Source of the DNA: Bacteroides cellulosilyticus
Lineage (GTDB): Bacteria > Bacteroidota > Bacteroidia > Bacteroidales > Bacteroidaceae
Direction of reading: 5' to 3'
Assembly (NCBI RefSeq): GCF_020091405.1
Contig: NZ_CP081903.1
Span: 5,704,501-5,768,500, forward strand
DNA length: 64,000 bases
In this document: positions 18,129 through 21,104 of the stretch, piece by piece
Position numbering within the stretch: the stretch's first letter is position 1
How the letters are laid out: each line of letters starts with the position of its first letter
Made by a program: the position numbers and the translations under genes
The notes under the pieces: generated by a model
Seen by the model: only the letters and a program-made list of their open reading frames with translations
Told to the model about the DNA's origin: nothing
Databases searched by the model: none

Positions 18129-18164
18129 TTGACTCACATCAATCTCTCTTTTCACCTCTTTGCG

Positions 18165-18172
18165 TATCTTTG
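18165..18172 (+). promoter_or_regulatory. -7 box of the MATE gene
   Basis: TATCTTTG, matching TAnnTTTG. It sits 38 bp upstream of ATG 18210 and inside the longer reading frame from 18129, which supports the later start. Confidence 0.55.
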
Positions 18173-18209: not shown

Positions 18210-19550
18210 ATGGTACATCAGGAAAGCTTGAAAAAGCGGCTTGCAAAGCTTGCTGCCCCCATCTTTATAGAAACCCTGCTCATCATGATGCTGGGCGCCG
18301 TGGATACTATTATGCTGAGTCGCCACTCCGACAGCAGTGTGGCTGCCGTCGGAGTAGTCAACCAAATTATTATGCTTACCTTTCTTGTGTTCGAGGTCAT
18401 TAATCTCGGTACATCCGTTCTTTGCTCCCAATATCTTGGCGCCCGCCTGCAAAAGAAAGTGGTACAAGTGGTCGGTGTTTCAATCCTTGTGAACATAGTG
18501 GTAGGCGTATCCGTCAGCCTGCTCCTTTTCTTTGGTGCCGGGCCTATCCTGCGCCTAATGGGACTGACTTCCGAACTGATGACTGACGGCATGGACTATA
18601 TGCGTATTGTAGGCGCTTTCGCCTTCTTCCAAGCCATCTCACTAACACTTTCCGCCTCCCTGCGCAGTGCCAATAAAGCCATTTACCCGATGCTGGTAAC
18701 CGTTGTTGTCAACATTCTCAATATTATAGGTAACTATTCCCTCATCTTCGGGCAGTTCGGTTTTCCCGAACTGGGTGTGGAAGGTGCTGCCATTTCCACC
18801 GCTTTCAGCCGTGGCGTGTCTATGGTTCTCCTGTTCATCATCCTGTTCCGCAAGCATATCCACCGCTTCCCCATTGCCTATTTCCGTCCGTTCCCGTGGA
18901 TAGAACTGAAAAATCTGATGAAGGTGGGACTCCCTTCTGCCGGCGAACAACTTTCTTACAGTTCTTCGCAAGTAGTGATTACCTTCTTCATCAATATGCT
19001 GGGCGTCGAAGCTCTTGCCACACGCACCTATTGTGTCAATATCATCATGTTTGCCTATCTGTTCAGCATCTCCATGGCGCAGGGTGGTGCCATTTGCATC
19101 GGGCATCTCATCGGAGAAAAGAAACCTCATGCCGCTTTCCTCATGGGTAAATATGTTATGAAGAAATCCGTCATGATCACCGTTATACTCTCCACCATCC
19201 TTGCTATATTCGGAAACACGATCTTCCATTGGCTTACTACCAATGAAGAAATCATCCGGCTCGGAACCACCATCCTCATCATCGACGTCATTCTCGAAAT
19301 CGGACGTCCCATCAATATCTTTGCAACCAACGCCTTGCGTGCTGCCGGAGATGTTACCTATCCTTTCTATGTCGGCCTGGTAGTTCAGTGGAGCGTTGCC
19401 GTCGGCTTGGGCTACATCATCGGTATCCCTCTGGAGTGGGGCATCTGCGGTATGTGGGTCGCCTTCTTGCTGGACGAGAACATCCGTGGAGCCATCTTCG
19501 TAAAACGCTGGTACAGTATGAAGTGGACGACAAAAGGGTTTGTTAAGTGA
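18210..19550 (+). CDS. MATE family efflux transporter
   Basis: 446 residues from ATG 18210 (MVHQESLKKRLAKLAAP). The reading frame is open to 18129, but the -7 box at 18165 makes the upstream ATG unlikely to be transcribed. Twelve membrane helices in two homologous halves; the DinF/NorM-type motifs IFIETLLIMMLGAVDTIML near the N-terminus and LMKVGLPSAGEQLSYS at the start of the second half are typical. Such pumps export drugs or cationic compounds with Na+ or H+ antiport. It stands alone and ends in an 11-bp hairpin. Confidence 0.92.
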   Translation: MVHQESLKKRLAKLAAPIFIETLLIMMLGAVDTIMLSRHSDSSVAAVGVVNQIIMLTFLVFEVINLGTSVLCSQYLGARLQKKVVQVVGVSILVNIVVGVSVSLLLFFGAGPILRLMGLTSELMTDGMDYMRIVGAFAFFQAISLTLSASLRSANKAIYPMLVTVVVNILNIIGNYSLIFGQFGFPELGVEGAAISTAFSRGVSMVLLFIILFRKHIHRFPIAYFRPFPWIELKNLMKVGLPSAGEQLSYSSSQVVITFFINMLGVEALATRTYCVNIIMFAYLFSISMAQGGAICIGHLIGEKKPHAAFLMGKYVMKKSVMITVILSTILAIFGNTIFHWLTTNEEIIRLGTTILIIDVILEIGRPINIFATNALRAAGDVTYPFYVGLVVQWSVAVGLGYIIGIPLEWGICGMWVAFLLDENIRGAIFVKRWYSMKWTTKGFVK

Positions 19551-19578: not shown

Positions 19579-19608
19579 TTGATATAAATCAAATCTTTTA
19601 TACCTTTG
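19579..19608 (+). promoter_or_regulatory. FNR-type box and promoter of the Crp/Fnr gene
   Basis: TTGATATAAATCAA at 19579-19592 is a perfect match to the FNR consensus TTGAT-N4-ATCAA. A TACCTTTG -7 box follows at 19601-19608. If transcription begins about 5 nt after the -7 box, the operator centre is near -27, over the -33 region, as expected for repression. Autorepression is an inference. Confidence 0.65.
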
Positions 19609-19643
19609 TCCCCGGAAACAGTTACAGAAACCAGCGAACAATT

Positions 19644-20228
19644 ATGGATACACTATTAAAAGAGACAGTTAATGCCACTGTGAATTCCCGTTATCCGGGC
19701 ATGGCACCTGAAGGTAGAAAACTGATAGAAGATATTCTGATCCGCAAAGAGCTGGAAAAGGGTGAACTCTTATTCAAGGAGGGACAAGTCTGCCACCACA
19801 TGGTATTTGTTGGAAAAGGCATGATGCGCCAATTCTATTACAAAAACGGTAAGGACGTCACCGAACACTTTTCCTACGAGGGTTGTGTCATCATCTGCAT
19901 CGAAAGCACCCTGAAACAAGAACCGACCCGCCTGATGGCAGAGGCCCTGGAGCCTTGTACAGTCTACCTTCTCCCCTACGACAAATTCATGAGATTGACT
20001 GAAATCTCCTGGGAAATCAATATGTTCTATCGCAAGATACTGGAATATTCACTCATAGTATCCCAGGTGAAAGCTGACTCCTGGCGGTTCGAAACAGCAC
20101 GCGAGCGCTACAATATGCTGATGCACACCCACCCGGAAGTCATCAAACGGGCACCATTATCACATATCGCATCTTATTTGCTGATGACGCCCGAAACTCT
20201 CAGCCGTGTTCGCGCAGGGATATTGTAA
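19644..20228 (+). CDS. Crp/Fnr-family transcription regulator
   Basis: 194 residues. Cyclic-nucleotide-binding-like beta roll at about 20-115 (ELEKGELLFKEGQVCHHMVFVGKGM...), a dimer helix (about 120-150), and a short C-terminal winged HTH with the recognition helix TPETLSRVRAGIL ending the protein, as is common in Bacteroidetes members. There is no N-terminal cysteine cluster, so it is not a classical iron-sulfur FNR; the ligand is unknown. Inverted copies of one FNR-type box lie upstream (19579) and downstream (20254), which suggests the protein or a paralogue acts at both. Confidence 0.88.
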   Translation: MDTLLKETVNATVNSRYPGMAPEGRKLIEDILIRKELEKGELLFKEGQVCHHMVFVGKGMMRQFYYKNGKDVTEHFSYEGCVIICIESTLKQEPTRLMAEALEPCTVYLLPYDKFMRLTEISWEINMFYRKILEYSLIVSQVKADSWRFETARERYNMLMHTHPEVIKRAPLSHIASYLLMTPETLSRVRAGIL

Positions 20229-20253
20229 GAAATACGATAAGAATATTCAGTTT

Positions 20254-20297
20254 TTGATTTATATCAAATCATTTTTCCCTGAAACTCTCTACCTTTG
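20254..20297 (+). promoter_or_regulatory. FNR-type box and promoter of a putative small RNA
   Basis: TTGATTTATATCAA at 20254-20267 is the exact reverse complement of the box upstream of the Crp/Fnr gene. TACCTTTG follows at 20290-20297. With a start about 5 nt beyond the -7 box the operator centre is near -41, the classic position for activation. No TTTG is found at -33, in keeping with activator dependence. Confidence 0.6.
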
Positions 20298-20301
20298 CGC
20301 C

Positions 20302-20407
20302 ATCAGAAAAGAAATAGAATTAGTTTTTATAGGTAAAAGAGATTAGTTTTTAGGGTATAAATTAAAAAAGAGGTAACAACTGAGTAAGGTTGTTGCCTCT
20401 TTTTTCG
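20302..20407 (+). ncRNA. Putative ~105-nt small RNA
   Basis: Bounded by a promoter (-7 box at 20290) and a strong intrinsic terminator (20364-20405). The interval has no ATG and no reading frame. It holds two direct copies of ATTAGTTTTTA (20319-20329 and 20342-20352), 23 nt apart, before the terminator stem. The 5' end is inferred from the promoter and may be off by several bases. An alternative is a long attenuated leader of the lipoprotein gene at 20472, but that gene has its own -7 box. Confidence 0.45.
20364..20405 (+). terminator. Intrinsic terminator of the putative small RNA
   Basis: 17-bp stem with one G-U pair (arm GAGGTAACAAC opposite GTTGTTGCCTC, extended by A6/T6), 8-nt loop, then T6. 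One of the strongest terminators in the window. Confidence 0.9.
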
Positions 20408-20471
20408 TTTACACTACAAAAATCATTTAAAAAACATGTAATGATGCAAATTAATTTATATATTTGTACGG

Positions 20472-21104
20472 ATGGAAATGAAGACACACGTATCACTGCT
20501 GAAAACAATATTGTTTCTTACCCTTGTACTGGTCGGATGCCAGGGAAGTTCAGATAAAGAGACACCTCCGGTAGAGCTACCACAAGAACTATTCCGGGAT
20601 GGAGATATCGCTTTCAGAAGAGGAACAGGGATTACCAGTAGAGTGGTGTTGGCTGCAGACCGGGAAGGTGCTTATTCGCATACCGGCATCCTGAAAAAGA
20701 AAGCCGGACAATGGTATGTGATACATGCCGTGCCTGGTGAACCGGATTTTAAGGACGACCCTGACCGTGTAAAAATGGAAACCGTAGAAGTATTCTTTGA
20801 GAAAAGAAAAGCTGTTAACGGAGCTATCATGCGTGTATCAGGGGATTCGGTAGCCAGATACCGGGCAGCAACTCACGCGGAACAGCTTTATGCGAGCCAT
20901 GTGTTATTCGATCATGATTATGATTTGGCAGACACCACCAAGATGTATTGCACGGAGTTGATAGACTTTGTATACAGAAAAGAGGGAATAGATTTACCTG
21001 AAGGGCGTGTCAGCCACGTAAATATTCCCGGATTCAGAGGAGATTATCTCCTGCCCAACGATATTGCGCAGAGCAAGCGTCTCTGTTTGATATACTATTT
21101 TTAA
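20472..21104 (+). CDS. Lipoprotein, YiiX/NlpC-P60-like permuted papain-fold hydrolase
   Basis: 210 residues. Lipoprotein signal with LVLVGC lipobox (Cys about 23). The GDIAFRRG-TSRVV start, then AYSHTGIL (candidate catalytic His) and MYCTELIDFVYRKEG (candidate Cys) are in the order H then C of the circularly permuted YiiX/YebB-like NlpC/P60 group, thought to hydrolyse amide bonds of peptidoglycan or lipids. A TATATTTG -7 box at 20459-20466 lies so close that transcription would begin at or beside ATG 20472; the second ATG at 20478 may be the real start or the mRNA may be leaderless. Confidence 0.8.
   Translation: MEMKTHVSLLKTILFLTLVLVGCQGSSDKETPPVELPQELFRDGDIAFRRGTGITSRVVLAADREGAYSHTGILKKKAGQWYVIHAVPGEPDFKDDPDRVKMETVEVFFEKRKAVNGAIMRVSGDSVARYRAATHAEQLYASHVLFDHDYDLADTTKMYCTELIDFVYRKEGIDLPEGRVSHVNIPGFRGDYLLPNDIAQSKRLCLIYYF

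Follow-up and report, generated by a model that had tools for sequence, protein, structure and literature searches.

A conserved small RNA beside a Crp/Fnr-type regulator gene of Bacteroides shares one type of FNR-like box, at one spacing, with MATE efflux genes

Cur is a Crp-like protein, and HcpR is a member of the Crp/Fnr superfamily. In Escherichia coli, an FNR-type protein acting from a TTGAT-N4-ATCAA site switches on the small RNA (sRNA) FnrS, whose gene is not adjacent to fnr. Three further systems come from Bacteroides. MasB of B. thetaiotaomicron is an sRNA of approximately 100 nt that is activated by Cur and linked to antibiotic susceptibility; its conservation is narrow, it is part of the Cur regulon (with its peak in starvation), and it represses BT_1675 (PMC10994844). 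SnoA, also of B. thetaiotaomicron, is encoded antisense within the hcp promoter, and its abundance is independent of HcpR (PMC13370916). GibS and FopS act near the start codons of their targets, and FopS is a 14-member paralogous family with canonical promoters (PMC11697453). An sRNA driven by an activator, or a noncoding RNA at the side of a regulator gene, is therefore of a kind already known.

The window analyzed here is a stretch of 64,000 nucleotides (positions 5,704,501–5,768,500 of a single-contig genome of 6.94 Mb). On its plus strand a MATE transporter gene is followed by a Crp/Fnr regulator gene, a small RNA and the gene of a YiiX-like lipoprotein (Table 1). The likeness to MasB is that of a Bacteroides sRNA of approximately 100 nt under a transcription factor (PMC10994844); compared by description, the present RNA differs in that it usually lies beside its presumed regulator and has its box geometry in common with efflux genes. 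The likeness to SnoA–HcpR is that a noncoding RNA adjoins a transcription-factor gene in Bacteroides (PMC13370916). Unlike SnoA as described there, the present RNA is on the strand of the regulator, it is not antisense to any promoter seen here, and an FNR-type box occupies an activator position. Unlike FopS, again by description, it has a single clear copy in the genome together with an activator box. The comparison with FnrS is with that RNA as generally described; the phylum is different, and the regulator in the window is without the FNR cysteine cluster.

No description of the RNA or of its link to MATE genes was found in the searched literature on Bacteroides Crp/Fnr proteins, MATE transporters and sRNAs, for the most part non-subscription papers, and the accessible portions of PMC10434189 and PMC12596196 yielded nothing on the RNA. 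It represents a conserved sRNA family outside Rfam, present in several Bacteroides lineages and previously uncatalogued. An sRNA is here tied to MATE efflux genes by one type of site at one spacing. The regulon would give a ready test of efflux control and sensing in gut commensals, and the 36-bp rule a simple route to further targets and to a function for an unstudied Crp/Fnr group.

Boxes on either side of the regulator gene

Two boxes that are exact reverse complements of one another stand on either side of the Crp/Fnr gene, at the places where a first-pass annotation of the window had reported TTGATATAAATCAA and its reverse complement. Box 1 starts 22 bp before the TACCTTTG of the regulator promoter and thus covers approximately −33 to −20. 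Box 2 starts 36 bp before the TACCTTTG of the RNA promoter, and its center falls near −40/−41 if the −7 element is centered at −7, in keeping with the position near −41 given to it in the annotation.

Table 1. Positions of the features of the locus, numbered within the window
Feature	Position	Strand	Remark
MATE-promoter FNR-type box TTGACTCACATCAA	18129..18142	+	Starts 36 bp before TATCTTTG
MATE-promoter −7 element TATCTTTG	18165..18172	+	Genome pattern match; position by arithmetic from the match
MATE family efflux transporter, 446 aa from ATG 18210	18210..19550	+	MatE, TIGR00797 above cut-off
Box 1 TTGATATAAATCAA, proposed self-repression site covering −33 of the regulator promoter	19579..19592	+	
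−7 element of the regulator gene, TACCTTTG	19601..19608	+	
Crp/Fnr-type regulator, 194 aa	19644..20228	+	PF00027; PDB 3dn7 relative
Box 2 TTGATTTATATCAA, class II activator position of the sRNA promoter	20254..20267	+	Putative site
−7 element of the sRNA promoter, TACCTTTG	20290..20297	+	36 bp from the start of box 2, spacing conserved
Noncoding small RNA, ~104 nt	20302..20405	+	5′ end placed from the −7 element; model R1
First ATTAGTTTTTA repeat	20319..20329	+	
Second ATTAGTTTTTA repeat, context AGAGATTAGTTTTTAGGGTA	20342..20352	+	One of the best-conserved segments of the RNA
Intrinsic terminator, 18-bp stem and U-run	20364..20405	+	Stem covaries across species
TATATTTG, separate promoter element of the lipoprotein gene	20459..20466	+	In 11/11 loci with this gene downstream
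YiiX-like (C92 family) lipoprotein gene, neighbor outside the sRNA unit	20472..21104	+	Domain matches below curated cut-offs

Within the window the number of near-matches to the box is unremarkable (seven with at most one mismatch, against a mean of 5.6 in shuffled sequence; 36 of 100 shuffles gave seven or more). Across the 6.94-Mb genome, TTGATNNANATCAA occurs at only 11 places, and its reversed control at two. Since two of these rare sites flank the Crp/Fnr gene within 700 bp, chance is not the expected explanation, and the conservation of the 36-bp spacing in relatives removes most doubt on box 2. The reported arrangement of boxes, promoter elements, ATG-free stretch and terminator is present in the sequence and is regarded as confirmed.

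We fetched 78 named orthologue loci, with a Bacteroides group of 54 sequences that includes the window; L052, whose frame is broken, was excluded from both the 54-sequence and the 78-protein counts, yet is among the 14 MATE loci considered below. A box–promoter pair follows the regulator gene in 13 of the 54 sequences (at 36 bp in 12 and at 37 bp in one) and in none of the 24 more distant orthologues, where L079 has a box without TAnnTTTG. Ahead of the regulator's own −7 element, a box is present in 26 of the 54, at 22–25 bp, with perfect half-sites in 23 cases and one mismatch in three. By pattern, none was found there in the other 28, which include L015, L027, L041 and L050, where the sRNA box is kept. 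Box 2 keeps to 36 or 37 bp, a rigid geometry for activation; box 1, at 22–25 bp and often absent, gives a looser one for self-repression. The repressing role that the annotation had assigned to the first box agrees with its position over the −33 region, but fewer than half of the orthologues have such a box.

The sensor domain of the regulator, of the cyclic-nucleotide-binding type (PF00027), scores 44.4 bits against a cut-off of 27.5; no Pfam helix-turn-helix model matches the protein at E ≤ 0.01. The recognition helix E184-x-x-S187-R188 is invariant in 78 of the 78 aligned sequences, and in FNR the E-x-x-S-R triad reads TTGAT. At E ≤ 0.001 the only solved relative by sequence is PDB 3dn7, a cyclic nucleotide binding regulatory protein of the same length (194 residues), which aligns over residues 34–191, up to the recognition helix. 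The cysteine cluster of FNR is an N-terminal pattern; it is absent here, as had been noted from the sequence at the outset, with no cysteine before residue 50 in the window protein. C85 is kept in all 54 members of the Bacteroides group and in 23 of the 24 others, and is the only cysteine that nearly all retain; C81 is kept in 46 of the 54. The regulator is 99% identical to the protein of Bacteroides cellulosilyticus DSM 14838.

The small RNA and its family

A covariance model, R1, was built from positions 20298–20405 and 19 relatives (20 aligned RNA bodies), with the promoter left out. R1 matches 30 of 149 Bacteroides genomes at E ≤ 1e-4, a count of related genomes in which some RNAs are the same or nearly so and which are not independent events. 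A box with perfect half-sites precedes TAnnTTTG in 29 of the 30 (at 36 bp in 28, at 37 bp in one); for ambiguous placements, better half-sites were preferred, then closeness to 36. The remaining match, in G111 (E 9.8e-5), has no box, comes from a genome that is not among the 104 bearing the regulator, and is probably false. The comparison, with 29 of 30 matches, supports the separate small RNA that had been proposed, with a promoter of its own and a box at activator position. Loss of the boxes or the terminator in orthologous loci was looked for: box and spacing are present in those 29, and the terminator stem is kept throughout the alignment of 20 sequences.

In 22 of the 29 genomes, RNA and regulator gene are no more than 1 kb from each other. 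In the other seven the RNA lies apart with box and spacing kept, approximately 45 kb away in G031, 36 kb in G078, 41 kb in G018, 30 kb in G119 and 9 kb in G141, and on other contigs in G083 and G074. At E ≤ 1e-4 and with the stricter filters it was not found in 75 of the 104 regulator-bearing genomes, and the sRNA is therefore not essential to the regulator.

A family-wide search with R1 matched 54 of 399 genomes at E ≤ 0.01. Among the promoters of 29 loci listed from this search, a box is present in the ten with E ≤ 7e-6 and in the weaker L135. Eighteen weaker matches, 17 of them outside the genus, have no box by the promoter pattern and were rejected as chance. The RNA is present in B. fragilis (L020, L078) and in Mediterranea and Caecibacteroides (L041, L050). 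Downstream of the regulator in B. faecis, B. xylanisolvens and B. finegoldii (L023, L028, L030) no copy was found; these species are closely related to the model strain B. thetaiotaomicron, and studies of that strain may therefore overlook the RNA. In L006, a metagenome-assembled genome, the sRNA stretch is absent, and the TATATTTG element and the start of the lipoprotein gene directly follow the regulator.

There is no ATG in 20298–20405. The predicted body of about 105 nt without ATG and with two direct repeats was recovered (approximately 104 nt, ATTAGTTTTTA twice); the terminator stem, given as 17 bp in the annotation, measures 18 bp, with a fold z of −8.0. This stem is paired in 91.7% of alignment cells, against only 47–62% for slid versions. 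Cells changed on both sides number 37, against a shuffled mean of 11.2 (no shuffle in 500 reached it). Nine pairs show a change on each side, a number reached by five of 500 shuffles, and the count of additional pair types is unexceptional (reached by 109 of 500); these two of the five covariation measures are weaker, and the structure was predicted from the same alignment that was used for testing. The ATTAGTTTTTA repeats are unpaired in the consensus fold and pair with each other in the minimum-energy folds of the window RNA and of that of L041.

None of the 26 distinct sRNA promoters has TTTG at −33. Judged by position (box near −41, spacing of 36 or 37 bp, no −33 element), these would be class II promoters. 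Rfam 15 at gathering score found only tRNAs in the window, and a permissive search over the sRNA gave matches far below gathering. In its own genome the RNA has no convincing second copy; the next match (E 0.001) is to the opposite strand and overlaps the terminator.

Shared boxes at efflux genes and the proposed circuit

The listed open reading frame of the adjacent MATE gene (473 aa) begins at the TTG that opens the box at 18129, and the ATG at 18210 was taken as the start. Among 14 loci with an adjacent MATE gene, the window included (the MATE matches of L012, L043 and L052 are partial), the box starts at 36 bp in ten and at 37 bp in one (L040); it was not found within the scanned stretch in L012, L015 and L017. 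In G095, where the MATE protein shows an identity equal to that in L017, the box is at 36 bp and the start codon farther downstream. Divergent MATE and regulator genes share one box in L009, L013 and L040, at 36–37 bp on the MATE side and 23–25 bp on the regulator side.

A search of the genome for TTGAYNNNNRTCAA, 20–26 bases and TANNTTTG returned four matches and its reversed control none. The matches fall at this RNA, at the adjacent MATE gene (MATE1), at a second MATE gene and at a fourth place (L110), where no adjoining open reading frame was found. The second MATE gene (MATE2; L111, G000:C1:3747705) encodes 449 aa, is 24% identical to MATE1 and has its box at 36 bp, and its homologue is boxed in five further genomes, at 36 bp and, in L220, 37 bp. 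Since MATE1 and MATE2 carry the same type of box at the same spacing, the sites point to an efflux regulon and not only to a regulator–sRNA pair. The pattern with 21–23 bases gave 46 matches against no reversed match in 17 hand-chosen genomes, 13 of which are sRNA carriers. The 30 loci listed from these matches comprise seven MATE1 genes, five MATE2 genes, eight sRNAs, two HAD phosphatases, two short-chain dehydrogenase-like genes (assigned by eye) and six other or unassigned loci. In the HAD-family phosphatase gene the box lies 37 bp before the −7 element (L231, L239), and in the short-chain dehydrogenase-like gene at 36 bp (L215, L222). At L115 (G000:C1:3042063), an intergenic box TTGATGTAGATCAA was seen beside two TGTTATAAAACAT sites, with very short open reading frames that have a TTTTTAGGTATTAG stretch.

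Sequence comparison establishes the boxes, their spacing, a conserved noncoding RNA, its terminator, its independence of the neighboring genes and the geometry shared with the MATE genes; from this pattern we infer which protein binds and whether it activates or represses. We consider it likely that the regulator switches on MATE pumps and an sRNA from class II sites and frequently represses itself. When its signal is present, the Crp/Fnr factor would bind the palindrome TTGAYNNNNRTCAA centered near −41 of sigma-ABfr promoters and serve as a class II activator, at the sRNA on promoters without the TTTG −33 element. Its targets would be the adjacent MATE pump, the second MATE pump elsewhere and the separate RNA of approximately 104 nt. 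Here and in about half of the relatives, the factor may also occupy its own −33 to −20 box and limit its own synthesis. The first-pass picture of a self-limiting regulator that switches on a small RNA agrees with the geometry by comparison; but the self-box is found in only 26 of 54 orthologues, and the link to MATE genes had been missed.

FNR-type half-sites are generic, and the RNA and MATE promoters might be under another Crp/Fnr paralogue whose recognition helix is similar, with the adjacent regulator a bystander or a co-regulator. Twelve first-look candidates for the regulator were counted in its own genome, other Crp/Fnr proteins could share the box, and a box-bearing gene for a 117-aa protein (144298, L113) has a different geometry. 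We nevertheless hold control by a paralogue to be unlikely: the boxes stand on both sides of this gene and reach into its promoter region, one box serves both it and the divergent MATE gene in L009, L013 and L040, and all 29 box-bearing RNA matches are in genomes with this orthologue (E ≤ 1e-50; 104 of the 149 genomes).

How the RNA works, on which targets, and the nature of the signal are points that we infer. Most likely its two U-rich repeats would let the sRNA work in trans at translation-start regions, and action in trans would couple efflux induction to post-transcriptional change elsewhere. The exact complement CCTAAAAACTAA of the conserved core has 33 matches in 12 genomes. The 30 listed loci, which were read, are the sRNA itself in nine cases, the leader of the 117-aa gene (on the other strand) in eight, a conserved intergenic stretch in three and others in ten. 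Complement sites fall shortly before start codons in L250 (28 nt), L251 (12 nt) and L257 (6 nt), and no gene recurs as a pairing target among the genomes read in this 12-genome search. A 16-base core form, ATTNGTTTTTAGGKWA, occurs in four of ten genomes, only within the sRNA. The conserved intergenic stretch (L247, L271, L272) carries CCTAAAAACTAATCGTCCGACAACTGTTG and further repeats, and in L247 and L272 it lies between divergent open reading frames.

Duplex energies were computed for nine sRNA–gene pairs: in the genome of the window with crp, MATE1, MATE2, the lipoprotein gene, the 117-aa gene and one gene picked by complementarity, and in G138 with crp, MATE1 and the lipoprotein gene. Six of the nine are no better than shuffled. 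In the window's genome, four of 200 shuffles were as low as the lipoprotein duplex and 13 of 200 as low as that of MATE2; the lipoprotein duplex of G138 is not better than shuffled (67 of 200 as low). The gene picked by complementarity (one of 200 as low) provides no independent evidence, because of how it was picked.

The 117-aa gene suggests another mode. It encodes an apparently exported protein, for which Pfam gives no match to the L113 copy, and an FNR-type box lies exactly 75 bp before the −7 element in nine of nine loci (L113, in the G000:C1:144298 region, L244, L246, L253, L254, L255, L258, L260 and L261). The region has a TGTT-N4-AACA repeat and a leader with a ATTAGTTTTTAGG-like element that is also in the sRNA. 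In B. fragilis (L020) the sRNA reads GATTAGTTTTTAGGTAACAATTAAAAA, resembling, in the same sense, the GATTAGTTTTTAGGTATAACAATTAAAAA of 117-aa gene leaders in other genomes. The sRNA might accordingly be a decoy and not antisense, sharing a sense-strand element with the leader and competing for a leader-binding factor. The efflux regulon would still run on one palindrome at a fixed distance, and the decoy would titrate an RNA-binding protein or another sRNA away from the 117-aa leader; if true, efflux would be coupled to envelope change. However, eight of the nine leaders were found through the core motif itself, the leader in the window's own genome differs (AATTGTTTTTAGG), and the binding factor is hypothetical. 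We regard the decoy, also as part of such a regulon, as unlikely, and prefer an sRNA that acts in trans on translation-start regions.

The RNA and its neighboring genes

The RNA might also be nothing but the 3′ UTR of the regulator mRNA with its terminator, the promoter-like part being incidental. From box to terminator, the stretch occupies approximately 25–180 bp past the stop codon on the strand of the regulator gene, from which the terminator would stop readthrough. This is very unlikely, as the RNA keeps box and spacing in the seven of 29 genomes where it lies away from the regulator, and in G078 a capsule locus intervenes. The eight proteins of that stretch that were tested include an integrase, a NusG-like protein, polysaccharide export and chain-length proteins, a UDP-sugar dehydrogenase, a GDP-mannose dehydratase and a glycosyltransferase. 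In G031 the stretch after the regulator gene holds homologues of five of the G078 capsule-stretch proteins.

On the downstream side, the gene that comes next is either convergent or preceded by a promoter element of its own in 23 of 25 RNA loci. In 11 of the 25 it is the lipoprotein gene, in the same orientation as the RNA, an order that would suit a leader or attenuator of that gene. Such a role is highly improbable: TATATTTG lies between terminator and gene in all 11, and in 12 of the other 14 loci a convergent open reading frame of at least 250 aa comes first (six are homologues of an AraC-type gene); in the remaining two, no open reading frame was found in the downstream stretch examined. 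That the RNA encodes a small protein, bacterial small RNAs being in some cases small mRNAs, is just as hard to credit: an ATG is present in 11 of the 26 distinct sequences, but the window RNA has none, and the longest open reading frames, of 0–31 codons, have no peptide in common.

The survey of downstream genes, the lack of a shared open reading frame and the occurrence of the RNA apart from the regulator together speak against reading it as leader, attenuator or plain 3′ UTR. That the RNA is a noncoding transcription unit of its own follows from the box and its spacing, the seven of 29 cases of separation, terminator covariation, the lack of a shared open reading frame and the promoters that the neighbors have of their own.

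An integrase directly follows the regulator gene in six named loci (the match in L014 is partial). The site after the regulator often holds an integrase and then, where read, capsule genes (L007, L008, L011, L013, L014, L043, L210 and L211), and L003 has an integrase-like start there, seen by eye only. Such a stretch splits the regulator from the sRNA in G078 and, within the part read, also in G031.
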